Below the pieces are notes generated by a model. The model was not told where the DNA came from. It made no database searches and worked only from the letters and a program-made list of their open reading frames with translations. From positions 1 to 35,312 of the IMG/VR virus record IMGVR_UViG_3300025030_000291: 35,312 bases of DNA, one strand, 5' to 3'. The stretch comes from a virus. Each line of letters starts with the position of its first letter. The stretch's first letter is position 1. This document shows, piece by piece, positions 1 through 35,312 of the stretch. Both the position numbers and the translations under genes were made by a program.

Positions 1-132
1 GCTACCCCCGCGGCACCTTTTCAATTTAAGCTCCCTCCGGTTGAGTTCAACGGGGGCGGGCGCCCGGCGCTCACCATTCCGCCGGGGCCCTGTACCCGCG
101 CCCGTTGTCTAGCGTTGCCCGTTAACGCCGGG
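1..132. repeat. Left copy of terminal direct repeat (contig closure)
   Basis: Bases 1-132 match 35181-35312, with one difference at position 6 (C here, A at 35186). The last 126 bases are identical. This is what an assembler leaves when a circular or circularly permuted molecule is cut at an arbitrary place. The repeat contains the TTG start (22-24) of the cysteine-rich gene whose full copy ends at 35204. The mismatch would change Cys7 of that protein to Gly in this copy, so an error at the contig edge is the simplest reading. Confidence 0.9.
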
Positions 133-832: not shown

Positions 833-1152
833 CGGTCGTCGTCCGGATCGGTTTTTTCCTCAGCCGTTGCCGCCTTGACCCCGTACCTGAGCGCGTCCAG
901 GCTGTCAACGTCGGGCTCCGGCCCCGGATCACCGAACGTCGACCGGGTGTAGCGCGGGGCGGTAACTGGCCCGGTGACTAGCAGGGCGGACAAGTCAAGC
1001 AGCCGCGCCGCTATCACGAGGACCGCGCAACCCTGGCCGCCCGGGTAGTTAATCCACCACACGCACCCGAACGGGCCCTCGTCTGTACGCGGGCAATTCG
1101 TAACGCCCGGCACGTTGCGCGGGCTCAGCGGTTGCAGCGGGCAATTACTCAC
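829..1152 (-). CDS. Conserved-looking small protein with CW-type motif
   Basis: 107 aa when started at GTG 1150-1152, which overlaps the SbcC stop as GTGA; an upstream ATG in the same frame at 1198-1200 would run 50 bases into sbcC and is less likely. The N-terminal half has four cysteines (4, 20, 30, 42) and the compact motif GPFGCVWWINYPGGQGC, followed by a hydrophobic strand AVLVIA. The C-terminal third is acidic. The Cys/Trp pattern suggests a small zinc-stabilised domain, but I know no named family. Position behind SbcDC suggests a recombination or replication accessory. Confidence 0.7.
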   Translation of the reverse strand: MSNCPLQPLSPRNVPGVTNCPRTDEGPFGCVWWINYPGGQGCAVLVIAARLLDLSALLVTGPVTAPRYTRSTFGDPGPEPDVDSLDALRYGVKAATAEEKTDPDDDR

Positions 1153-3416
1153 GCGCCCATCACGAGGATCGCCTCGGAACCTTCCGGACCTTTTGAACAT
1201 TCAATTCGCGCGGGGAACGCCCCGGCCAGGTCCTCGTGGTGAGTTATCAGCAGGATCGTTTCAAACGTTGAGCCGAGGGACGTTAACAGGGCGATCAGCT
1301 TTTCCCGGCCGTCCGCGTCCAGGCCCTCGGGCTCGTCCAGGATCAGCGCGTCGACCTGAGCGCCCGCCCTGGCGGTTAACAGTTTTGACAAGGCAACCCG
1401 CAGCGCAACGTTGACGCGGTACGCCTCGCCGCCGCTATAGGTTTCGTAGGGCCGCGCAACCCCGCCGTCGGTGATTATGACGTCGAGGGTTTCCGCGATC
1501 CGGTCGCTTGTCTTGAGGGCCTTTTGAGTTTCCAGGGAAACGCGCAACCCGCCGCCGAGGCCCTCGAGCAAGGCGTTCGCCGTTGCCTCAACCTCAGGGA
1601 TTGCCGCGTCAATTATTAAGGCCGGAATACCGTCGCGCCCGAGCGCCCCGGCCAGGTCCCGCCAAACGTCCGCCTCGGATTGCGCGGCGGTCCAGCGTTC
1701 ACGGTCCCCGGCGGTGTCCGCCTGTAGTTTGTCCAGGCGCTCGAGCCCTGAGGCCGCGCGCGTTTTGCGTTCCTGAGCGTCGGCCAGTTGCTGCCGAGCG
1801 CTGTCAAGGTCACACCGGGCGTGGCTGAGGTCCTCGGCTACACGCTCAACGCTGTTAAGGGTTTCAGCCATTGCGTTGAGCGCGTCCCGGGCCTCGGTGA
1901 GGCCGCCCCGGGCCTTTGCCGCGTCGGCGGCCATTGTCTCAAGCTCAGCGGTGAGGTCCGCGGCCTTTTGCTCAGCGGCCTCGGCCCTTGCAATCCGCGC
2001 CGCGTGATCCGCCAGGGCGGCGACCGCGTCTATTGCAGCGCGGTGCCCGGCCTCGTCATAAACAAACACCGGCGCCGCGTTGAGCGCGCCGTCGGCCTCG
2101 CTGGCATACCGGCGGGTTTCCTCAACGTTCCCGGCGACCGTCTTTGCGGCGGCCTCAGCGGCCGCCAGGTATTCCCGGCGCTGTTCAACGTCAACCCGCC
2201 CGGCGTCGGCCTTTGCCTCAGCGGCCGCGAGGGCCTGTTCAAACGACGCGCCCTGTACGTCCTGGCCGCAGGTTTCGCACACCGGCGCCTCGGCCAGCTT
2301 GAGGTCGGCGGCCGCGTTGATAGCGTCCGCCGCTATATCCTGAGCCCGCGCCAGGTCCCGGCGGGCCTCAGCGACTACCTCCTCAGCGCCGCGCGCCTGG
2401 GCGGTTGCGGCGTCCAGCGCGTCACGTGTCCGGCGCGCCTCAGCGCCGAGCCGTTCAATCTCAAGGCGGTGGGCCTGATAGGCGTCGCGCTCTTTTTCAA
2501 AGTTGCTGACAATAACCTCGAGCGCCGGTTTGCCCTCAAGGTCCGCGCGTAATTGCGGCAAGGCGTCGCGCTCACCTAACAGGGCGCCGCGGTTTTCCTT
2601 CGCCGCTCTGATCCGCTCGGCCAGGTTGTCGGCCAGGTTTTCAAGGTCCCGGGCCTTGTCCGCCAGCGCGTCGCGTTTAGCCCACGCGGCCGCCCCGGCC
2701 TTGTCTTTTTCGGTGAGGTCCGCGACCGTAGCCTCGGCGGTTTTGACGTACGCGGCCAGGTTGTCAACGCGCTCGAGGGCGCTGGCGGTGTCATGCTCAA
2801 GCGCGCCCCGGGTTGCAAGCTCAGCCTCAACGCTCTCGAGGCGCCCGCTCAGCGTGTCAATTTCCCGGACCCTGGTCGCGAGGTGATCCTTTGCGGCGGT
2901 GTGAAGTTTGGCATACGCCCCGAGGTCCAGGACCCCGGCCAATACCTTTTTACGTTCGGTGGGCCCGGCGCCGGTGAACGCGTCCGCCGCGCCCTGAGCG
3001 ATCCACGCGCTTTTTAGAAACCCGTCCAAGTCCAGGCGTAAGGTGTTAACGATAACCGCCTGCGTTTGTTTGGCGGTGTCCCCGCTGAGGGATTGCCAGG
3101 CGCCGCCGTCCTCAATAGCAAACTCGAGGGAGCTTTTGCCGCGGCCGTTTATATCACGGGAACGGGTGACGCGGTACCGGCGCCCGGCGAGGTCAAAAGT
3201 AAACCGGACGCCTCCGGCGCTGGCGCCGCGCTTAACATAGTCGTCGGCGCTGATCCCGCCCTGCGGGCCGTACAACGCAAAAAGCATGGCGGACAATATA
3301 GACGATTTCCCGGCGCCGTTCGGGCCGCTGAGCGTAGCCGCCCGGACGCCCTCAAGGTCAAGCTCCAGGGTTGCATAACTGCGGAAGTTTTCCGCGGTGA
3401 TCCGAACGGGTTTCAT
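1149..3416 (-). CDS. sbcC: SbcC/gp46-like SMC-family ATPase
   Basis: 755 aa. Walker A (GPNGAGKSS, residues 31-39), two heptad-rich Ala/Glu coiled-coil arms, a central zinc-hook CETC (about residue 380), the ABC signature YSGGEAYRVN (about 660) and Walker B ALILDEPEGLD (about 690) appear in the expected order. The family (Rad50, SbcC, T4 gp46, T5 D13) is the ATPase half of a DNA-end-processing nuclease. The arms are shorter than in cellular SbcC, as in other phage versions. The ATG overlaps the SbcD stop as ATGA, so the two subunits are translationally coupled. Likely role: processing DNA ends during phage recombination-dependent replication. Confidence 0.95.
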   Translation of the reverse strand: MKPVRITAENFRSYATLELDLEGVRAATLSGPNGAGKSSILSAMLFALYGPQGGISADDYVKRGASAGGVRFTFDLAGRRYRVTRSRDINGRGKSSLEFAIEDGGAWQSLSGDTAKQTQAVIVNTLRLDLDGFLKSAWIAQGAADAFTGAGPTERKKVLAGVLDLGAYAKLHTAAKDHLATRVREIDTLSGRLESVEAELATRGALEHDTASALERVDNLAAYVKTAEATVADLTEKDKAGAAAWAKRDALADKARDLENLADNLAERIRAAKENRGALLGERDALPQLRADLEGKPALEVIVSNFEKERDAYQAHRLEIERLGAEARRTRDALDAATAQARGAEEVVAEARRDLARAQDIAADAINAAADLKLAEAPVCETCGQDVQGASFEQALAAAEAKADAGRVDVEQRREYLAAAEAAAKTVAGNVEETRRYASEADGALNAAPVFVYDEAGHRAAIDAVAALADHAARIARAEAAEQKAADLTAELETMAADAAKARGGLTEARDALNAMAETLNSVERVAEDLSHARCDLDSARQQLADAQERKTRAASGLERLDKLQADTAGDRERWTAAQSEADVWRDLAGALGRDGIPALIIDAAIPEVEATANALLEGLGGGLRVSLETQKALKTSDRIAETLDVIITDGGVARPYETYSGGEAYRVNVALRVALSKLLTARAGAQVDALILDEPEGLDADGREKLIALLTSLGSTFETILLITHHEDLAGAFPARIECSKGPEGSEAILVMGA

Positions 3417-4759
3417 ACTACGCCCTCCTGTTCCTCGATTAGTTTGCCGAGGGCCGCTAACAGTTTTTCGCGGTCGGGGCCCTCGATTAGTTTGCCGTCA
3501 AGGTAGCGGGTCAACGCCTCGAGCGGGCCCGCCGCGTCCGCCAGGGCGGCGTCGCGGATCAGGGCCGGGCGGACAAGCTCAACCTCGGGGCCGACAACCT
3601 TAACGGCGCCGTAGCCCGCAAGCTGGCGGACAATCCCGGCCCGGTCAATCCTGGCCGCGTGATCCGCCTCGCCCTTGTATATCAGCCGGACGACGGCGCC
3701 GGTGAAGTCCTGCGCCAGTTCCGGCGCCGGGATCGTGGGCGCGCCGTCAAAAACGGGGTCGTCCTGTAATCTGATCGTGATAAACGGCCGGGCCTGCGTC
3801 GGGATATATTCAACGCTCACCGGGCCAAACGGCGCCGCCGGGTGACGTTCAAACGCCCATAGCGCGACCGTCTTTTCCTCACCGGCCTCGCCAAAATCAA
3901 CGCGCTCCGGGCTGCCGCAATAAACCGTGGGCGTTCCTGTAGTTCCTAACGCCTGGCGCCGGTGTATATGCCCGAGCATGATAGCGTCGAAGCCGATCTC
4001 CTTGAGGTCCGCCAGCGGTAAAACAGGCTCACCGAAAAACGTGGTCGCCTGTTCCGTTGAGGTTGCCGCGCCGCTAACCGTATGATGGGCGACGAGGATA
4101 CGCGGGCCGCGGGTCAAACCTTCCCGCAATTCCTGGCGGTCCGCGACGGCCGCCTGAGCGTACAGGCCCCGCGCGGTTTCCATCAGGCCCCGCGCGATCC
4201 GGGCGTCCAGTTCGTCGCGGCTGAGGCCGTCCGCGTCCTGAGCGGCGGCAAAGGAACGCGGCACCGCTGGCAGGGTTGCTATCAACGGCGCGCCGCGGTC
4301 GGATGCAATCCGGGACGGTGTAGCCTCGCAAAGTAACAGGCGGCCGTCGTCCGGGTCTTTCGGCCTGAGGGTTAAAAGCTCAGGGCGGCCGGACACGTAA
4401 ACGCCCCGGCTCGGATCGTGGAATATATCAAGCGCGGACGCCCGGCCAGGCGAGGCCGCGGTGTCATGGTTTCCGAGGACTATTAACGCCGGGATCAGCG
4501 CGTCGGTTGCAAGGCGCAACCCGGCGGCAAAGGCCCGCAACGCCGTCGGGGACGGCTCACGCGTCCGGGCCAGGTCCCCGGCAAACACTAACAGGTCGAC
4601 GCCCTCGTGAACGGCGCGGCCGCAAACTTGCAGCCACGTGTCCGCGAAATCCGTAAAGCGGGAATTAAGGCCGCCCTCCTTGTCAACGTTCCCGTGGCTG
4701 TAGCCGCTCTCGAGGTGTAAATCCGCCGTGTGCATAACGCGAAACGGGTTAGCTTGCAT
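3413..4759 (-). CDS. sbcD: SbcD/gp47-like nuclease subunit
   Basis: 448 aa. I chose ATG 4757-4759 because a GGAGGG site lies just upstream; longer in-frame starts sit inside the preceding gene. All calcineurin-like phosphoesterase motifs of the Mre11/SbcD family are present in order: HTADLHL (D13, H15), FAGDLA (about 56), LGNHD (about 94), AHHTVSG (about 224) and LGHIHRR (about 263). These bind two metal ions, normally manganese, for exo- and endonuclease activity with SbcC. The start overlaps the upstream stop by 11 bases and the stop overlaps sbcC as ATGA, so a fixed stoichiometry through coupling is likely. Confidence 0.95.
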   Translation of the reverse strand: MQANPFRVMHTADLHLESGYSHGNVDKEGGLNSRFTDFADTWLQVCGRAVHEGVDLLVFAGDLARTREPSPTALRAFAAGLRLATDALIPALIVLGNHDTAASPGRASALDIFHDPSRGVYVSGRPELLTLRPKDPDDGRLLLCEATPSRIASDRGAPLIATLPAVPRSFAAAQDADGLSRDELDARIARGLMETARGLYAQAAVADRQELREGLTRGPRILVAHHTVSGAATSTEQATTFFGEPVLPLADLKEIGFDAIMLGHIHRRQALGTTGTPTVYCGSPERVDFGEAGEEKTVALWAFERHPAAPFGPVSVEYIPTQARPFITIRLQDDPVFDGAPTIPAPELAQDFTGAVVRLIYKGEADHAARIDRAGIVRQLAGYGAVKVVGPEVELVRPALIRDAALADAAGPLEALTRYLDGKLIEGPDREKLLAALGKLIEEQEGVV

Positions 4760-5741
4760 AATTGCCGCCCTCCTCAGGACCGGGGTCGCCGTCCTCAACG
4801 ATTTCGCCGTCTATGATTACGCCGTCGTCGTCCTCAGGCTCAACGCTCAGCGGCGCCCGGTGCATATCAGCCGGGGCGGGTCCGCCGGACGCCACCGGGG
4901 CCTTGTCCGGGTACAGACTACCCGAGGCCGCGTCACCGCGCTCGGTTAATTGCCGTTGTATTTCCGGGTTTGAATAGTCCGGCTCGAAGTCAATCCGCGG
5001 GATCGCCCACGGTTTTTTCAGTTCCTCGGCGGTGTAGGTTGGCCGCAAGGATAGCGCCGCCCGTATCGCGCGGTTATATGCTTTTGATTCAGCCATTGCC
5101 CCGGCGTGTTTTTTCAGCCGCAGGGTTTCCTTCCGGATATAGGTCGCTTTTTCCTCAGGCGTTGCCGCCCGCTGATTATTGCCGTAACCGGATTGTAACG
5201 TTTCCGCGCGTTCCTCGGCCTCCACGATCTCAACGTCAAGGCGTACCTCCTTATGGCCGATCACCGGTTTGAACGTCCCGTCGGCCAGGCGGATATAACC
5301 GACCGCCCTGAATACTTTTCGGTCGGGCTCGTCAACGGTGAACCTTGACCGGTCCGGGTCCCACCGGATACCGGCGGCGTCGCTGATCCTCAGCAACGTG
5401 GGCCGGGTCAACGCGCGGCCCTTGCCGCCCGCGGGTTTGTAGGTGTCGACCTCGGCGTTGATTTCTATTTTTTCAACGCGTACTTTATGCCGGTCGCTGA
5501 TTTCCCTGATATACGTTTCGGTCGGGTACAGGACGAGGAAGCCCTTGTCGGCGTAAGTGCTGAGGCTAACAAGCTCCTGGCCGCGGGCGCCGGTGCCGCG
5601 GTATTCAGTACCGGCGGGCGGATCAGCGGGCGCGGTGTCCGGCGGTGGATCTCCGCCGGGCGGGGTTGCCGCCTGATCCGGCGGCGTGGTGGTGGGATTG
5701 TCCGGCGGCAATTCGCCGGGGTCCCCGGTCGGGTAGTTCAT
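4749..5741 (-). CDS. Putative recombination protein, possible single-strand annealing type
   Basis: 330 aa from ATG 5739-5741, preceded by GAGGAGGG at good spacing. Residues 1-50 are a disordered Pro/Thr-rich tail. A folded core follows (about 55-235) with mixed strands (FLVLYPTETYIREIS, VGYIRLADGTFKPVIG) and a basic helix (IRKETLRLKKHAGAMAESKAYNRAIRAAL). The C-terminus is acidic and disordered. The KAYNRAIRAALSL segment resembles the conserved helix of phage recombination proteins of the annealing or Rad52-like kind, and an acidic tail is typical of such proteins. Placement immediately before SbcDC supports this role. I cannot assign a named family; function is inference. Confidence 0.6.
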   Translation of the reverse strand: MNYPTGDPGELPPDNPTTTPPDQAATPPGGDPPPDTAPADPPAGTEYRGTGARGQELVSLSTYADKGFLVLYPTETYIREISDRHKVRVEKIEINAEVDTYKPAGGKGRALTRPTLLRISDAAGIRWDPDRSRFTVDEPDRKVFRAVGYIRLADGTFKPVIGHKEVRLDVEIVEAEERAETLQSGYGNNQRAATPEEKATYIRKETLRLKKHAGAMAESKAYNRAIRAALSLRPTYTAEELKKPWAIPRIDFEPDYSNPEIQRQLTERGDAASGSLYPDKAPVASGGPAPADMHRAPLSVEPEDDDGVIIDGEIVEDGDPGPEEGGNYAS

Positions 5742-5794
5742 ACTTTCCCTCCTCAGGTTTGCGGGATCACGGCCGCCCCGGCCGCGGGTCCCTT

Positions 5795-6103
5795 TTATAA
5801 CAGTTTGAACAGTTGCGAAACGATAACGGCCAGGGCCAGGACGGCCAGGGCTGCCAATATTAACACGCCGAAGCGACGGCTCGTAATGAAACACCGCTCC
5901 GCCTCAGGCTTAATCGGTTTGAAGTCCGGGCACCCCGGGCGGGTTTCCGCCAGGGACACCCGCAGGCGTACGTGCCCGCAATCCGGGCAGGCGAGGCGCT
6001 TGACCGCGCCGAGCGGATCACCGCCGTCGGGCGCGTAATCCTCAGCGGCCCCGGTGTATCTAACCGACCCGCAGTCTGGATTCTGGCAAGCTAAAACGAT
6101 CAA
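5795..6103 (-). CDS. Zinc-ribbon protein with C-terminal membrane segment
   Basis: 102 aa. TTG start at 6101-6103 overlaps the upstream stop as TTGA and is preceded by GAGGAGGAA. C-x4-C (residues 6-11: CQNPDC) and C-x2-C (CPDC, about 39-42) form a probable zinc ribbon. A strongly hydrophobic C-terminal helix (VLILAALAVLALAVIV) would anchor the protein in the membrane with the ribbon in the cytoplasm. No family recognised. A 53-base gap separates it from the next gene, which has its own strong ribosome site. Confidence 0.7.
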   Translation of the reverse strand: MIVLACQNPDCGSVRYTGAAEDYAPDGGDPLGAVKRLACPDCGHVRLRVSLAETRPGCPDFKPIKPEAERCFITSRRFGVLILAALAVLALAVIVSQLFKLL

Positions 6104-6327
6104 CGTTCCTCCTCTTTTTTAGTGATCCGGTCCCGGACCTGTTCCGGTGTTAACCGGTTGCGGGCGGCAATAATATCAAGGTCAAACGAGCGCAGGCATG
6201 ATTCACAAACAAACGCGGCGCGCTTAACTGAATAATAAACCGTACGTTTGCCGCACCGGTCCGGGCACACGTGGCAATTAAACCGCGCGCCCTCAGGTCC
6301 GGGGCCGGTGGGGCGCTGATAACTCAA
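6100..6327 (-). CDS. Small zinc-finger-like protein
   Basis: 75 aa if started at TTG 6325-6327, which overlaps the HTH stop as TTGA; a longer start would invade the HTH gene. Cysteines are spaced C-x2-C-x3-C (CHVCPDRC) and then C-x2-C (CESCL), consistent with a single treble-clef or ribbon zinc site. The C-terminal helix is charged (RLTPEQVRDRITKKEEER). There is no convincing ribosome site, so translation probably depends on coupling to the HTH gene. Function unknown; a DNA- or protein-binding accessory is plausible. Confidence 0.65.
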   Translation of the reverse strand: MSYQRPTGPGPEGARFNCHVCPDRCGKRTVYYSVKRAAFVCESCLRSFDLDIIAARNRLTPEQVRDRITKKEEER

Positions 6328-6581
6328 CGCTCGGCGCCAGGAACGACGCGGAATATTTCCCGCCACGGCGTACGTAGTTCGGCGGCAATCTTGACCGCCA
6401 GCGCCGGGCTCGGGTTACGCTCACCGCTGAGCAACCGCGAAACCGTTGACGGGTTAACGTCAACCGCGCGGGCCAGGTCCCGGACGCCGTAGCCGACCTC
6501 GAGCATTAAGTCCCGGAGCGTCCGCGTGTTAACGCGTAACTGGCCGGGCCTTGTAAATCGGGGGTTTGTTTCCTGTTCCAT
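6324..6581 (-). CDS. XRE/Cro-type helix-turn-helix regulator
   Basis: 85 aa from ATG 6579-6581, preceded by AGGAGGTGA. A classic HTH spans about residues 20-75: LRDLMLEVGYGVRDLARAV, then VNPSTVSRLLSGERNP, where the NPSTVSRLLSG helix is the recognition helix. This family binds operator DNA as dimers. It is the only sequence-recognisable regulator in the genome and sits after a long structured noncoding stretch and a terminator-like hairpin, so its own expression may be attenuated. Likely targets are the inverted repeats at 6894-6978 or 31247-31274, but that is a guess. Confidence 0.85.
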   Translation of the reverse strand: MEQETNPRFTRPGQLRVNTRTLRDLMLEVGYGVRDLARAVDVNPSTVSRLLSGERNPSPALAVKIAAELRTPWREIFRVVPGAER

Positions 6582-9400: not shown

Positions 9401-11116
9401 TTACGGTAAATATAAAAGGCTGGCCCGCCTGAGGGCGGGATCGCCGTGGGTTGCATCCCACCGCTCGAGCGTCACCTTAACCCGTACGTATGGCTGCGGC
9501 TCAACCTGGCGGATCGTAACCTCGCGGCCGGGAAATTCCAGGCGCGGCAGGGCCCGCTGAGGTACAGGCCGCAAGGCCGTCGAGTCCACGCTGAATTGAT
9601 CCACGCGAATTGCGTCCAGGTAAAACGAGGCCGCCAGGGCTGCGGGACAACCGCCCGCGTTATTTATTTCGCCGCTGGCAACGATCCGCGCCTTTGCCGC
9701 CTCGTACGGCGCCTCCTGTAATATGTAATTTGTCCGGCCGTTTGTTTCGTGGTCGCTAAACTCGGAACGTTCCCGGGTTAGTTTCATAGCGTCCAGCCGC
9801 GTCGTGCCGTCGCTTTTGTAAAATTCCAGCGTCATATCAAACAGTTGATAATGATGGATAACCGGGATGCCGTAGCCGGTGTCGGGCGCGTTGCTCACCG
9901 TTTTTTGATCCCATTGCAAGGCGGTTAAAAGTCCCGCGGTTATATTGAACATGGGCCCCGTCGCCACGACGTATTTCCTGAGCGTTCCCTTGACCGGGTT
10001 AAATTTAAGGGATTTCCCGAGGGCGCCGCGGACGTGATAATCGGCGCTGAGGCCGAGCGTTCCGCCATTTCCTTGCGTAACGTCAAAAGTCCAGCCTGCG
10101 GCAACGGCGGCAGCGTCGTCCGCGTAGTCAAACGCCTCGGTATATTTAGGCGTAAGGACCGCGTCGTTGTAATCCCTGATGGGATCAAACCCGCGCATAA
10201 CAAACGGGCGCCCGGCGCCCGTGTTAGCGTGGCCGTGGCTGGACCTAAACCACCGCGCGCGAAACCCTTTAGTTTCAGCGGGCGGAACGGCGCTGCAAAA
10301 TATAAACTTCCACACGGCGGCCTTTTCACCGTTGCCTCCGGCGTTCAGGCTGAAATATTCGTTATTGCCCAGCGAGTCACCGTTTCCGTAATAGGCGTCG
10401 GGGTACGCGGTGCCGCCTAAAAATTCCAGGCGGCTCCAGTCAAACTCGGCCCGGGGGTTGGTTGCTACCTCTGCCTGATAAAGGTACAGGCCCCACGTCA
10501 ACCGCTCCGCCCCTTTGTGCAGCAGGTTTTCGTCCAGGCTGCTATCAGTTACAAACGCGCCGGTTTGTAGTGCTTGGATCAGCCGCAAGGCGTCGCCGGG
10601 CCCTGAGCGTCCGAGCCAATGCGGCAACGGCCCGGACACGAGGCCGCCGTCCGCGGCCTGCGCCCACGAATAGTTTGACGCCGTCGGGCCTAATACCATA
10701 ACCCGCGGCGGCAGGCCGTTGACGTTTGACCCCATCAGCGTTGCCGCCGAGCGGTTGTCCGGCAGGTATTCCGACCACGCGACGCCGTCCGCGGACGTTG
10801 CAACCTGTACAAACACGTCGGAAACCTGATGGTTTCCAAACACGGCGCCCCAACTTTTAGGAGCCTGAGGCGGGTTTTCACTTGTCATCGTGTCCGTGGC
10901 GGCGTCGACTAAAATATCATACAGGGCGGCCGCGCTTATATCGTTGAATTGATAGACGGCCTCAGCCTCCGCCTCGCCGTCCGCGATCCGGATCGTGCCG
11001 TCGGGATCGGTTGCGAGGTTAGTAGACTCCACAAGGCGCCCCGGGGCGGGTACGGTTAACACCCTCAACCCGGCGGCCGGGTCCAGGTCCTGCGAATTTC
11101 CGTCAAGCTCAGCCAT
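9401..11116 (-). CDS. Tail fibre or receptor-binding-like protein
   Basis: 571 aa from ATG 11114-11116, with AAAGGAG upstream. It is rich in Gly, Asn, Tyr and beta-strand patterns. The N-terminal third (DISAAALYDILVDAATD..VFVQVATSADGVAWSEYL) resembles discoidin/galactose-binding-like sandwich domains, and the region about 330-500 (FDYADDAAAVAAGWTFDVTQ, MFNITAGLLTAL, ASFYLDAIRVDQF) resembles a carbohydrate-binding jelly roll. The C-terminal 60 residues look like an attachment module. Lying between tail genes and lysis genes, it is best read as a host-surface-binding tail protein. There is no catalytic motif I can name. Confidence 0.65.
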   Translation of the reverse strand: MAELDGNSQDLDPAAGLRVLTVPAPGRLVESTNLATDPDGTIRIADGEAEAEAVYQFNDISAAALYDILVDAATDTMTSENPPQAPKSWGAVFGNHQVSDVFVQVATSADGVAWSEYLPDNRSAATLMGSNVNGLPPRVMVLGPTASNYSWAQAADGGLVSGPLPHWLGRSGPGDALRLIQALQTGAFVTDSSLDENLLHKGAERLTWGLYLYQAEVATNPRAEFDWSRLEFLGGTAYPDAYYGNGDSLGNNEYFSLNAGGNGEKAAVWKFIFCSAVPPAETKGFRARWFRSSHGHANTGAGRPFVMRGFDPIRDYNDAVLTPKYTEAFDYADDAAAVAAGWTFDVTQGNGGTLGLSADYHVRGALGKSLKFNPVKGTLRKYVVATGPMFNITAGLLTALQWDQKTVSNAPDTGYGIPVIHHYQLFDMTLEFYKSDGTTRLDAMKLTRERSEFSDHETNGRTNYILQEAPYEAAKARIVASGEINNAGGCPAALAASFYLDAIRVDQFSVDSTALRPVPQRALPRLEFPGREVTIRQVEPQPYVRVKVTLERWDATHGDPALRRASLLYLP

Positions 11117-29416: not shown

Positions 29417-30805
29417 TCAGCCGTCCTCGTTGAACGGGCCCTCCGCGGTCAAACCTGTTAGCTTTTCCCACCGCGCCTTTATTACGTCGCAATAGCCCGG
29501 CTCGATTTCCAGGGCGTAGCACGTCCGGCCGGTTTGCTCAGCGGCCAGCAGGCCGGACCCGGACCCGCAAAAGGGATCGAGGACAACGGAGCCGACGGCG
29601 GTGAATTGCTCAAAAGTCCAGGCGGCGAGGGCGATAGGTTTCTGCGTCGGGTGAACGCGGGCCGCGTCCTTTTCACTTGCCCGCAGCATACCATTCCAGC
29701 GGTGCCGGAACAGGCGGGCCGCCGTTTGCTGATTCGTCCACGCCATCTCAACGTCCGCGAAATTCCCGGTGTTTTGTTTGTCCCATACAATCCAGCAGGC
29801 CGAGGCGGGCAAGGCGTCCGCGTAAAACTGGCCGCCCCAAAATATCAGGACCGCCTCCGGCGCAACGGCCAGGCAGGCGGCGTAAGATTTCAACGCGGTG
29901 TCGGTTGTATCGTCCCCGGTTATCGGCAGGTACCTTTGCGCCTTGTAAGTCCTGGCGGCCGCGCGGTTGCTTTTCTTTAGGCCGAAGTTAGGTTGCCCGC
30001 CGCCGCCCACGCGTCCCTTGCGTTTTGATCCGAGCGGTGAATCGTTCCCGACCTTGCCGCGCCGGGCGCCGCCTGATCCGAGGCGCGGGTCCTCAGCGGC
30101 GGTCGGCGGAACGTTCGGACGTTTGGCCCATCCCGAGCCGATAATGTTTACGCCGTACGGCGGGTCGGCGTATACAAGCGCCGGGACCGCCCCGGCCAGG
30201 ACGCGCTCGAGGTCCACGGTTTCGGTTGAGTTGCCGCAATACAGGACGTGGCGCCCGAGGCGGTAAAGGTCCCCGGGTTTTGTCACCGGCTCAACCGGTA
30301 CCGGCGGCTCGTCATCGTCCCCGTGGATCACGCGGGACCCGTCCTCGATTGCCGCCGTCTTTAAGTCCTTAAAGGTTTTAGGATCAAACCCGGTTAGCGC
30401 GATATCAAACCCGGCCAGCTCCACGTCGCTGAGCATCCCCGCCAGGCCGGGCACGTCAACCTCCGCTAGTTCCGCGATCCGGTTATCAGCTACGAGGTCC
30501 GCGTGTTCCGCGGCCTCAGTCTCGTAGTCCTGAAAATCAACCGGCGCGTCGGTTTCCCCGTTGATCCTGGCGGCCTCGAGGCGGGCGTGTCCGCGGACAA
30601 TAAACCCGGAGCGGTTGCTCACCGTGATCGGCGCGCGCCAGCCTTGCGCCTTGATTATTTTGCTCAGCAGGTCCAGTTGCTGCTCGGGGTGTTTGTTCGG
30701 GTTGCGCGGGTTCGGGGTTATTGTCTCAAGCTCGGCCAGCTTATCAAACGCGCAATAAACGGGCGTACCCTGAGCGGTTGACGCCGGGCGGCGCGCCCGC
30801 GTCAT
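29417..30805 (-). CDS. ParB-like nuclease domain fused to DNA methyltransferase
   Basis: 462 aa; ATG overlaps the stop of the 43-aa upstream gene as ATGA. N-terminal ParB/Sulfiredoxin-like domain (residues about 10-130): LETITPNPRNPNKHPEQQLDLLSKIIKAQGW, then GFIVRGHARLEAAR. C-terminal adenine- or cytosine-N4 methyltransferase: catalytic DPPYG (about 215) precedes the SAM-binding DPFCGSGSGLLAAE (about 408), the beta-class order. Such fused proteins are frequent in phages near the terminase genes and probably modify phage DNA against host restriction; the ParB-like part may act as a nuclease or specificity domain. Target sequence unknown. Confidence 0.9.
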   Translation of the reverse strand: MTRARRPASTAQGTPVYCAFDKLAELETITPNPRNPNKHPEQQLDLLSKIIKAQGWRAPITVSNRSGFIVRGHARLEAARINGETDAPVDFQDYETEAAEHADLVADNRIAELAEVDVPGLAGMLSDVELAGFDIALTGFDPKTFKDLKTAAIEDGSRVIHGDDDEPPVPVEPVTKPGDLYRLGRHVLYCGNSTETVDLERVLAGAVPALVYADPPYGVNIIGSGWAKRPNVPPTAAEDPRLGSGGARRGKVGNDSPLGSKRKGRVGGGGQPNFGLKKSNRAAARTYKAQRYLPITGDDTTDTALKSYAACLAVAPEAVLIFWGGQFYADALPASACWIVWDKQNTGNFADVEMAWTNQQTAARLFRHRWNGMLRASEKDAARVHPTQKPIALAAWTFEQFTAVGSVVLDPFCGSGSGLLAAEQTGRTCYALEIEPGYCDVIKARWEKLTGLTAEGPFNEDG

Positions 30806-32797: not shown

Positions 32798-32898
32798 ATC
32801 AGGACCGCCAGGCCGACGACGCCACCACAAATAAGCAAAAAGACAAGCGCAAGGAACGCGTAAGCGATAGCCGTTCCGATTATCCGGGGCCCGTTCAT
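32779..32898 (-). CDS. 39-aa membrane peptide
   Basis: ATG 32896-32898 shares a base with the initiator gene stop (TAATG) and is preceded by AGGAGG inside that gene's last codons. The peptide is essentially one long transmembrane helix (AIAYAFLALVFLLICGGVVG..AVLIC) with short polar ends (MNGPR, CRTIF). Small single-helix proteins like this are common in phage early operons, as inhibitors or membrane tethers, but function is unknown. Confidence 0.6.
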   Translation of the reverse strand: MNGPRIIGTAIAYAFLALVFLLICGGVVGLAVLICRTIF

Positions 32899-34112
32899 TA
32901 TGCCTCCTGTTTAGCGTTGAGCGTTTCCGCGTGTTTTATCAGGTATGCCTCCAGGCCGCCCGCGGCGGTGACGGCCTGAAACGTCAAGGGCTCAGGAGCC
33001 CGGGGGTTTGGCAGGGTGATCGTCCAGGCGCAGGCCCGGCAACCTATCAGGGCGCCGTTACAATAGGGCCCGAGCAGGTCTAGGACGTATAGGTCGCCGT
33101 TACAGGCGGCTGCGTGTTCCTTCACCTCAGGCCCCGCCTCGCGGTTGAGCCCGGGCAATTCATGGCGCCGGGGAAACAACCCGGGGAAGGTGTCCCGCTT
33201 ATATGCGCGATCCTTTTCGGTTTGCTCAACCTCAGCGGCCGGGTCCTGATCCGCGTCGGCCTGAGCCCTGGCCGCCTGGCGCCGGGCGTCCGCGTCTTTG
33301 TTCTCAATCCATAGCGCCTCGTTTCGCTCAACGTGTTCGGCGTCCCTGAATTGTAGGTCGAACGAGTTATGCTTTTTGCCTTGCGCGTCCGGGTCCCGGC
33401 CCATTGCCCACGCGTTGTACGCGATCCCGCGGGTAGCGTCCGCCAGGCGCTCGAGGGTGTATCCCTCTTTGATCCGGGCCGTGATTAGCTTCCGGCGTTT
33501 GTCGGTGAACACCGCCCGGGGCGCGTAAAGTTCCGCGTACAGGTTGAACAGGTCCCGGACGGGATCAGCGCGACGAGAGGGTTTAGGTTTTGGTTCGGTT
33601 ATGGTTTGGTTAGGTACGGTGGCGCCTGACGTCCCGCGCCCATCCTCAGGACGTCCCGCGCCCGTCCCGGGGACGTCCGCAGGACACTCGGCGTTTTCCT
33701 TTTGTTTAGGCGGGTCGCTCTTTTTCTTGGCAACGTTTCCGCCCGCCCTGGCGATCCTTTTTCGCTCAGCGTTTGCGCGGCGGCGCTCGATAAGTTTACC
33801 GGCGTAATCGTGCCAATCGTGAACGGTTAAGTCGTCGTTAATGAAACCGGGCGCGGGACGTCCGCCGCCCGTCCCGGGGACGTTTTGCAAGGCGGCCAGC
33901 AGGTCGCCCGGGTCCCCGGTCCAGTCAACGGCGGCGGCTATCTCCTCAGGATTAAACCCGGACAAGTCACCCTCCGGGGCGTAGTCCAGGCACCACCACC
34001 ACAATAGGTGCATTAACCCGACGGCGTCCCGGCGCGTGATCTCAAGGCGCCCGGCCAGGCGGGCCAGCTTAGGGTGGCGGGCTAGTTCCTGATTCGATTC
34101 AATCCAGGCCAC
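32898..34112 (-). CDS. DnaD-like / phage replisome organiser (initiator)
   Basis: 404 aa; GTG start 34110-34112 with CCGGAGGG upstream. N-terminal domain 1-120: MAWIESNQELARHPKLARLAGRLEITRRDAVGLMHLLWWWCLDYAPEGDLSGF..IAAAVDW is the winged-helix start typical of phage replication initiators in Bacillota. A disordered linker (about 120-190) carries two VPGTGxGRP repeats coded by the iteron-like DNA. Domain 190-275 (LFNLYAELYAPRAVF..HNSFDLQFRDAEHVERNEALW) matches the phage conserved C-terminal domain. The last 60 residues hold cysteines (CNGALIGCRACAW), a possible extra zinc site. Expected to bind the origin and recruit host helicase loading. Confidence 0.85.
   Translation of the reverse strand: MAWIESNQELARHPKLARLAGRLEITRRDAVGLMHLLWWWCLDYAPEGDLSGFNPEEIAAAVDWTGDPGDLLAALQNVPGTGGGRPAPGFINDDLTVHDWHDYAGKLIERRRANAERKRIARAGGNVAKKKSDPPKQKENAECPADVPGTGAGRPEDGRGTSGATVPNQTITEPKPKPSRRADPVRDLFNLYAELYAPRAVFTDKRRKLITARIKEGYTLERLADATRGIAYNAWAMGRDPDAQGKKHNSFDLQFRDAEHVERNEALWIENKDADARRQAARAQADADQDPAAEVEQTEKDRAYKRDTFPGLFPRRHELPGLNREAGPEVKEHAAACNGDLYVLDLLGPYCNGALIGCRACAWTITLPNPRAPEPLTFQAVTAAGGLEAYLIKHAETLNAKQEA
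33581..33877. repeat. Iteron-like repeats and AACC tract inside initiator gene (candidate origin)
   Basis: Three copies of an 18-base unit (GACGTCCCGCGCCCRTCC and a close variant) lie at 33628-33645, 33650-33667 and 33857-33874; the first two start 22 bases apart (two helical turns) and the second and third share a longer 27-base context with only few differences. Immediately beside them is a TGGTT/AACC-rich tract (33581-33613). A set of repeats plus an easily melted or strand-biased tract in the initiator gene is the arrangement of phage origins such as that of lambda. The repeats also code VPGTGxGRP peptides. Confidence 0.55.
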
Positions 34113-34455
34113 GGGGTCCGCCCTCCGGCGCGGCTACGTGTTCCCAGGCGTCATGGTCCCGGGGATCTGCGCCAGCGACAATCGCGTCAACGCTCAACCG
34201 GTAGTGTTCACGGGTTAGGAAAACAAACGCGGTCCGGTTGTCCCCGCCGCGTACCTCAGCGGGAACGCCGCCGCCCGGATCAGCGGCCGCCAGTTTCGGC
34301 GGGATAATTGCCTGCGTGATCCTCACGTCGGGCGCCTCAACAGTGAACCTGATAAACCATTCCCCGTTCGGGCTGAGCATTAAGACGTCGCCCGGCGCCA
34401 GGGCGTCACCGTGAAACGTGCGCGGCCCTTGTTTTTCGGCGTCATTGTCCGGCAT
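34099..34455 (-). CDS. Unknown small protein
   Basis: 118 aa; ATG after a strong GGAGGGAGG. The pattern is beta-rich in the middle (DVLMLSPNGEWFIRFTVEAPDVRITQAIIPPK, NRTAFVFLTREHYRLSVDAIV) with acidic ends and no cysteines or membrane segments. Stop overlaps the initiator gene by 14 bases. Position between the cysteine-rich protein and the initiator implies a replication-related or takeover role, which cannot be inferred further. Confidence 0.65.
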   Translation of the reverse strand: MPDNDAEKQGPRTFHGDALAPGDVLMLSPNGEWFIRFTVEAPDVRITQAIIPPKLAAADPGGGVPAEVRGGDNRTAFVFLTREHYRLSVDAIVAGADPRDHDAWEHVAAPEGGPRGLD

Positions 34456-34490: not shown

Positions 34491-35204
34491 TCAGTCCGCG
34501 AGGTGAAGGTCGCCGCCGCCTTGCGAGGCGTCCGGGTCCTCAGGATACGGCTCGGCGGTCGTCTGATCCTCAACGCCGGGGATCAGTTCCCCGAGCGGGC
34601 CGTCGTGATCGTCCGCCCTGGCGCCGTCCGCCGGGTCCTCAGGCTGGCCGCCGATAGGCATGAACAGGCCGCAATAGGAGCCCGCCGGGGTTTCACACGA
34701 TTCGCCGTCCGGTACCGGATAATTACAAACAAGGCAAAGGGCCTCGCCCTCGTGAATTTCCCCGGTGTCCGGGTCAATAAAAGACGGGCCCGGGTTTAAC
34801 GGGTAGTAACCGCTGCAGCCGGTGTCCGCGTTGAGCGGCGGGTCGAGCGGGCAATCGTCCGAGGCGTTTTTGCATGATAAGCAAAGGTCGTCGGGGTTTT
34901 CCTTTTCCGCGAAGCCGTTGCAATAAAGGAACGGCCGCACGTCGTCCTCGCCCACCGCGGCCTCGTCCCGTTCAAACTGGCAACCGGGATCGCCCGGCGT
35001 GTTAATACAGGCCGCGCAAAGTTCCGCCAGGTCCGGCGTTGCTACTAATTCAAGCTGGCCCTCGAGCGGATCGTGCGGGCCGTCGTGGTTTTTGCAGCCG
35101 GTTGATAGCGGGCGGCGTCCTTTTTCTGAGCCGACCGGGCTCGGTGAATAGTTGCACGATTCCGCGTCTTTGTCCCAATAGCTACACCCGCGGCACCTTT
35201 TCAA
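34491..35204 (-). CDS. Protein of four tandem Cys4 modules
   Basis: 237 aa; TTG start 35202-35204 after GGAGGGAGC. Sixteen cysteines fall in four quartets: 4/7/17/37, 63/66/75/95, 108/111/118/130 and 157/160/170/178, each C-x2-C-x6-9-C-x7-19-C. Each module is probably one zinc site; short aromatic pieces (CSYW, YCNGF, SGYYP) occur near them. The last 50 residues are acidic and disordered. It could bind nucleic acid or act as a protein scaffold, and its gene starts a row of replication genes. No named family recognised. A left-end contig copy of the start codon region has Gly for Cys7. Confidence 0.8.
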   Translation of the reverse strand: MKRCRGCSYWDKDAESCNYSPSPVGSEKGRRPLSTGCKNHDGPHDPLEGQLELVATPDLAELCAACINTPGDPGCQFERDEAAVGEDDVRPFLYCNGFAEKENPDDLCLSCKNASDDCPLDPPLNADTGCSGYYPLNPGPSFIDPDTGEIHEGEALCLVCNYPVPDGESCETPAGSYCGLFMPIGGQPEDPADGARADDHDGPLGELIPGVEDQTTAEPYPEDPDASQGGGDLHLAD

Positions 35205-35312
35205 TTTAAGCTCCCTCCGGTTGAGTTCAACGGGGGCGGGCGCCCGGCGCTCACCATTCCGCCGGGGCCCTGTACCCGCGCCCGTTGTCTAGCGTTGCCC
35301 GTTAACGCCGGG
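35181..35312. repeat. Right copy of terminal direct repeat
   Basis: Second copy of bases 1-132, identical except at 35186 (A; C at position 6). It carries the start of the 16-cysteine gene in its intact form, so the right copy is likely the correct version. Gene order runs on across the join: winged-helix-like gene (174-551), a possible small peptide, then this gene. Confidence 0.9.

Follow-up and report, generated by a model that had tools for sequence, protein, structure and literature searches.

We present an acidic 237-residue phage protein with a four-fold internal repeat of cysteine modules, encoded in IMG/VR virus record IMGVR_UViG_3300025030_000291, whose 35,312 nucleotides constitute the window analyzed here. 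We propose, at a probability of roughly 0.45, that it is a tandem array of four Cys4 metal modules of the CX2CXnCXnC-x2-aromatic class, acting as an acidic accessory protein that docks on a partner. What would be new is the fourfold tandem occurrence, in a phage orphan, of a Cys4 metal module whose kind is known.

The gene and its four cysteine modules

The coordinates of the gene in the initial annotation, 34491-35204, are correct, and the coding strand is the minus strand. The frame, which starts with a TTG codon, is open over 237 residues, and its GC content by codon position (GC1/2/3 of 0.67/0.50/0.72) agrees with that of the neighboring genes. A promoter scan on the uncircularised sequence detected none upstream. 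The features of the gene and its product are:

34491..35204, minus strand: gene for the four-module cysteine protein, supported by its open frame and GC by codon position; an orphan
35213..35218, minus strand: GGAGGG, read from the sequence as the ribosome-binding site, 8 nt upstream of the TTG start
35094..35195, minus strand: module 1, C4-C37, C-x2-C-x9-C-x19-C, then K-N-H
34920..35018, minus strand: module 2, C63-C95, C-x2-C-x8-C-x19-C, then N-G-F
34815..34883, minus strand: module 3, C108-C130, C-x2-C-x6-C-x11-C, then S-G-Y-Y-P
34671..34736, minus strand: module 4, C157-C178, C-x2-C-x9-C-x7-C, then G-L-F-M-P
34494..34655, minus strand: acidic tail, residues 184-237, with 15 D/E and 1 K/R; probably disordered, judging by composition

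The protein has exactly 16 cysteines, at positions 4, 7, 17, 37 / 63, 66, 75, 95 / 108, 111, 118, 130 / 157, 160, 170, 178, and these form four C-x2-C-x6-9-C-x7-19-C quartets with none to spare (loop lengths of 9/19, 8/19, 6/11 and 9/7 from module 1 to 4), just as had been read from the sequence at the outset. When 16 cysteines are placed at random, 1.5e-5 of trials have a C-x2-C at the head of every quartet, a fraction that rises to 3e-5 if all cysteines are confined to residues 1-183. In an alignment pinned on the cysteines, the likeness between the modules at non-cysteine positions was reached in none of 5000 shuffles. Because the quartets are beyond chance and the likeness extends outside the cysteines, the four-fold internal repeat is real, and the earlier description of tandemly repeated modules holds. 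The third residue after the fourth cysteine is F, Y or H in all four modules (H in module 1; F, Y and F in modules 2-4), for which the chance is about 4e-5 given the residue frequencies of the protein itself and a position picked post hoc; modules 2 and 4 also have an aromatic residue ahead of the last cysteine (YC-x2-F). Each module contains one C-x2-C pair and two single cysteines, rather than the two pairs of the zinc ribbons and rubredoxin. With this combination of a single C-x2-C, two lone cysteines and an aromatic residue after a two-residue spacer, the plan is that of the HiPIP-fold [4Fe-4S] modules (PMC12358834) and not that of the zinc ribbons.

Genome closure and gene neighborhood

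The ends of the contig overlap by 132 bases, of which 131 are identical, and the genome is probably a complete, closed circle of about 35,180 bp; IMG/VR had found no end repeats for this contig despite the overlap. The single mismatch, at position 6, would have the left copy read Gly for Cys7; so near the end of the contig, at six bases, an error of assembly or sequencing is its most likely cause. The elements of the closure and the principal neighbors are:

1..132, no strand: left copy of the terminal overlap, equal to 35181-35312 with one mismatch
35181..35312, no strand: right copy of the terminal overlap, containing the start and upstream region of the 34491-35204 gene
3413..4798, minus strand: sbcD, upstream after closure (PHROG 100, E 1.1e-17)
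1149..3416, minus strand: sbcC, upstream after closure (PHROG 77, E 1.6e-77)
32898..34112, minus strand: phage replication initiator, second gene downstream (PHROG 9474, E 4.5e-39)

All identified genes of the genome are on the minus strand. In the order of transcription, the closed circle runs from a PHROG 13782 gene (4749-5894) through sbcD, sbcC and three small genes (829, 548, 174) to the four-module gene, followed by a gene for a 118-residue protein (34099-34455), the replication initiator, whose product is 42% identical over 187 residues to the primosome protein of Paenibacillus phage Harrison, further small genes, a ParB-like/methyltransferase fusion, the terminase subunits, the portal and other structural genes. 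The closure thus places the four-module gene inside a row of DNA-metabolism genes, and its apparent position at the start of the replication row, as initially annotated, is an artefact of the contig break.

Two of the small upstream genes (548-832 and 829-1200) are orphans; the product of the former has 7 cysteines in 94 residues (CRGCNC...C...CTLC), in a plan unlike the four modules. At 6100-6366 there is a gene for a basic 88-residue protein with zinc-ribbon-like cysteines, which weakly matches Cas12f1-like_TNB (E 0.0013, below the cut-off). The fusion gene at 29417-30805, which combines a ParB-like domain with an N6/N4 DNA methyltransferase, directly precedes that of the terminase small subunit.

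Searches for homologs, families and folds

The protein is an orphan in the collections searched. We recovered no match to the whole protein in IMG/VR, where an abridged splice of its modules used as a second bait likewise retrieved nothing, nor in the GTDB species genomes, phages, plasmids and PDB sequences; no homolog was found among terminase relatives (16 records). In 400 Chloroflexota genomes, the whole protein drew three weak matches, none with the cysteine plan, and a single-module protein drew chance matches for the most part. Pfam, PHROGs and NCBIfam gave no significant match to the whole protein, and profile searches with the separate modules (Pfam, PHROGs) reached no known family at significance, with Pfam being devoid of significant matches at either level. 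Within the window, PF18524 (HPIP_like) has no match at E 10 and DUF1540 (PF07561) has none; PADLOC places the protein in no defense family. The weak single-module matches to Pfam and PHROG families, namely DUF2685, PMSI1, phrog_1043 and phrog_23504, are at chance level, with that to DUF2685 (PF10886; E 0.11) being confined to module 4 and not significant.

PDB searches with module profiles retrieved no HiPIP. A match of a nine-module profile to cathepsin K in the PDB (E 0.02) is an artefact, for the match covered just the profile's second half and lacked the CxxC, and the underlying profile alignment had misplaced cysteines. AlphaFold models of the whole protein (pLDDT 41.5) and of a three-sequence alignment of single modules (pLDDT 47.9) are both unusable, and Foldseek returned no match for the latter. 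In the open-access literature we found no phage HiPIP-like protein.

Single- and two-module relatives

As regards the curated families, the initial statement that no domain is recognisable stands; the plan itself, nevertheless, recurs in small uncharacterised phage and plasmid proteins that have C-x2-C-xn-C-xn-C-x2-aromatic. Single-module CxxC..C..DWCGxF proteins of this kind (L064 327-533, L065 5239-5430 and L085-L091) come from phages and mostly Alphaproteobacterial plasmids. No curated family in the libraries searched covers the single-module members tested; the sole Pfam match of one such protein is HIPIP (PF01355; E 0.028, below the curated cut-off). The single-module proteins (L061, L064, L065, L085-L091) share with the phage modules both the plan and the residues flanking the cysteines, CxxC-x-[YFW]-[WFY]..C..[DW]-C-x2-[FYWH], and the histidine at +3 seen in module 1 also occurs among them (WCGEH in L065 and L085). 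They differ from the four-module protein in having one module of ~55 residues with longer loops and with a last cysteine that is usually preceded by W and followed by G, and in giving no pairwise match to it.

We compared the four modules with a class profile made from eight natural single-module proteins with the cysteine columns omitted. When residues were shuffled 20,000 times, 14 shuffles equalled or bettered their score; when columns were permuted as often, 65 permutations did; with the aromatic column also dropped, the figure was 75 of 5000. A control set of 81 CX2C..C..C stretches, taken from ORFs in all six frames of the retrieved loci, scored at chance level (mean z -0.10, sd 0.96), and the summed z of the four modules, 7.08, was equalled by none of 20,000 random foursomes of controls; module 2 by itself is weak (z 0.55). 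These statistics support a kinship of the four modules with the single-module class beyond cysteine placement, one that depends on a cysteine-pinned alignment and on a small family collected with a CxxCKYWD bait.

One terminase relative encodes a 136-residue two-module protein (L018 6455-6862; C-x2-C-[RK]-Y..C..C-x2-Y-x-P), which is also an orphan. It has a tandem plan like that of the four-module protein, with each module ending in C-x2-Y-x-P; it differs in having two modules with longer loops and shows no significant similarity to the latter. Another terminase relative, IMGVR_UViG_3300033998_000339 (loci L035/L019), has the same sbcD-sbcC-initiator-terminase order as the phage studied here. 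Two genes ahead of its sbcD it encodes a CxxC protein with one module of this plan (L035), and it also carries an integrase-like gene. In Synechococcus phage MinM1, the gene matched by a single-module protein (L084 628-798) comes two genes behind one of the Gp37/Gp68 family; L035 appears to have a similar gene (9684-10631) between sbcC and its initiator.

Possible relationship to HiPIP-fold proteins

Glycyl radical enzymes have accessory subunits with a HiPIP fold, such as MASS-gamma, MASS-beta and BSS-gamma, which ligate [4Fe-4S] through CX2CXnCXnC; the ligands in MASS-beta are Cys32, 35, 51 and 86, a HiPIP-like fold is also found in BSS-gamma, BSS-beta and MASS-gamma, and there are two clusters in the HPAD small subunit (PMC12358834, PMC12590467). 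All four phage modules have the ligand plan of HIPIP (PF01355) and HPIP_like (PF18524). They also have the +3 aromatic residue of the HiPIP-fold proteins, with H in its place in module 1; in solved members, as read from PDB matches, the corresponding segments are CASW (1cku), CEAF (4pkc) and CPNF (2y8n). Their loops, in contrast, are of 6-9 and 7-19 residues, versus about 13-19 and 13-23 in the solved proteins compared. When scored against three solved HiPIP-fold sequences, the modules are equalled by 29 of 5000 shuffles. The single-module class yields p values of 0.01 with HiPIP, 0.13 with BSS-gamma and 0.38 with the second module of HPAD, where the HPAD row ended after the last cysteine and had its third cysteine set by hand. 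The sequence link from the single-module class to the solved HiPIP-fold proteins is hence weaker than that from the modules to the class, and the whole chain, from the modules through the class to the HiPIP-fold proteins, is suggestive.

Charge, alternative explanations and proposed function

Among the 42 proteins compared, this one has the strongest acidity (pI 4.05, net charge -0.148 per residue), and it stands as the most acidic product of the phage. The acidic tail that had been noted is present, and its composition suggests that it is probably flexible; the acidity, however, extends beyond it, with 24 D/E against 4 K/R in residues 61-183 (modules 2-4), while residues 1-60 (module 1) are near neutral, with 8 K/R and 9 D/E. 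Given this strong acidity, direct DNA binding is unlikely, module 1 aside.

This charge distribution bears directly on the initial suggestion of nucleic-acid binding. A set of zinc fingers in tandem, binding nucleic acid during replication, would suit a gene near the replication initiator and sbcCD, a multi-module layout and the near-neutral module 1; yet the excess of acidic over basic residues, six-fold in modules 2-4 and 15 to 1 in the tail, and the want of a match to any nucleic-acid-binding zinc family make this reading improbable. Host takeover, the other role initially suggested, is possible; the results speak neither for nor against it. Less probable than nucleic-acid binding is that the protein is cysteine-rich and secreted or disulfide-bonded, or that the frame is no gene: the even cysteine count and the orphan status accord with it, but the N-terminus, LKRCRGCSYW, has no hydrophobic signal-peptide stretch, the ribosome-binding site is strong, the codon-position GC is neighbor-like and the internal repeat speaks against it.

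A more serious alternative, which we regard as possible if doubtful, is that the modules are four structural, knuckle-like Cys4 zinc modules in an acidic protein-binding adaptor, with zinc ordering the short modules and the acidic linkers and tail making contacts or mimicking DNA; its partners might include factors for replication, repair or transcription, from the phage or from the host. Zinc is possible because the solved relatives compared have longer loops, and the shortest loops of the phage protein, 6/11 and 9/7, would above all suit a mononuclear Cys4 site; the extreme acidity and the setting of the gene amid DNA-metabolism genes are also consistent with such an adaptor. Conversely, the plan differs from C-x2-C..C-x2-C, and a zinc reading would have to account separately for the aromatic residue past the fourth cysteine and for the resemblance to the HiPIP-like small proteins.

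We prefer the reading as an array of Cys4 metal modules of the CX2CXnCXnC-x2-aromatic class, in which four small modules would be joined by acidic linkers and end in an acidic, probably flexible tail. Each module most likely holds one metal centre, with the sequence plan making [4Fe-4S] somewhat likelier than zinc. The protein would probably act in the cytoplasm of the infected host, which we infer to be probably anaerobic. It most likely functions as a docking or accessory protein for a partner encoded in the row, with SbcCD, the 4749-5894 product and the replication initiator as candidates; by analogy, it might dock in the manner of the HiPIP-fold subunits on glycyl radical enzymes, as opposed to gripping DNA. 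The link to a partner comes solely from gene order, and any redox role would be extrapolated from that order and the glycyl-radical-enzyme analogy. A fuller version, in which the protein carries four [4Fe-4S] clusters in tandem HiPIP-like modules and, as an accessory to phage DNA replication and recombination, senses redox state or wires electrons, is unlikely. If iron-sulfur clusters are present, this would be a tandem four-cluster HiPIP-like phage protein, offering a lead on the role of the uncharacterised single-module phage and plasmid proteins; if zinc is, it would be an orphan acidic adaptor of moderate interest.

Comparison with known systems

Classic HiPIPs are single-module periplasmic electron carriers. 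They (PF01355) have C-x2-C, C and C-x2-[FYW] in common with the phage modules; the loops of the 1cku HiPIP (16/13) are unlike those of the latter, and the phage protein has no signal peptide. The accessory subunits of glycyl radical enzymes (BSS-gamma/beta, MASS-gamma/beta and the HPAD small subunit; PF08201, PF18524) show no significant sequence match to the phage protein, and no glycyl radical enzyme is seen among the annotated genes of the phage. Nevertheless, they are likewise built of small CX2CXnCXnC modules, and BSS-gamma and the HPAD small subunit display the +3 aromatic residue after the last cysteine, as in the phage modules. The HPAD small subunit has two such modules in tandem, as against four, with shorter loops, in the phage protein.
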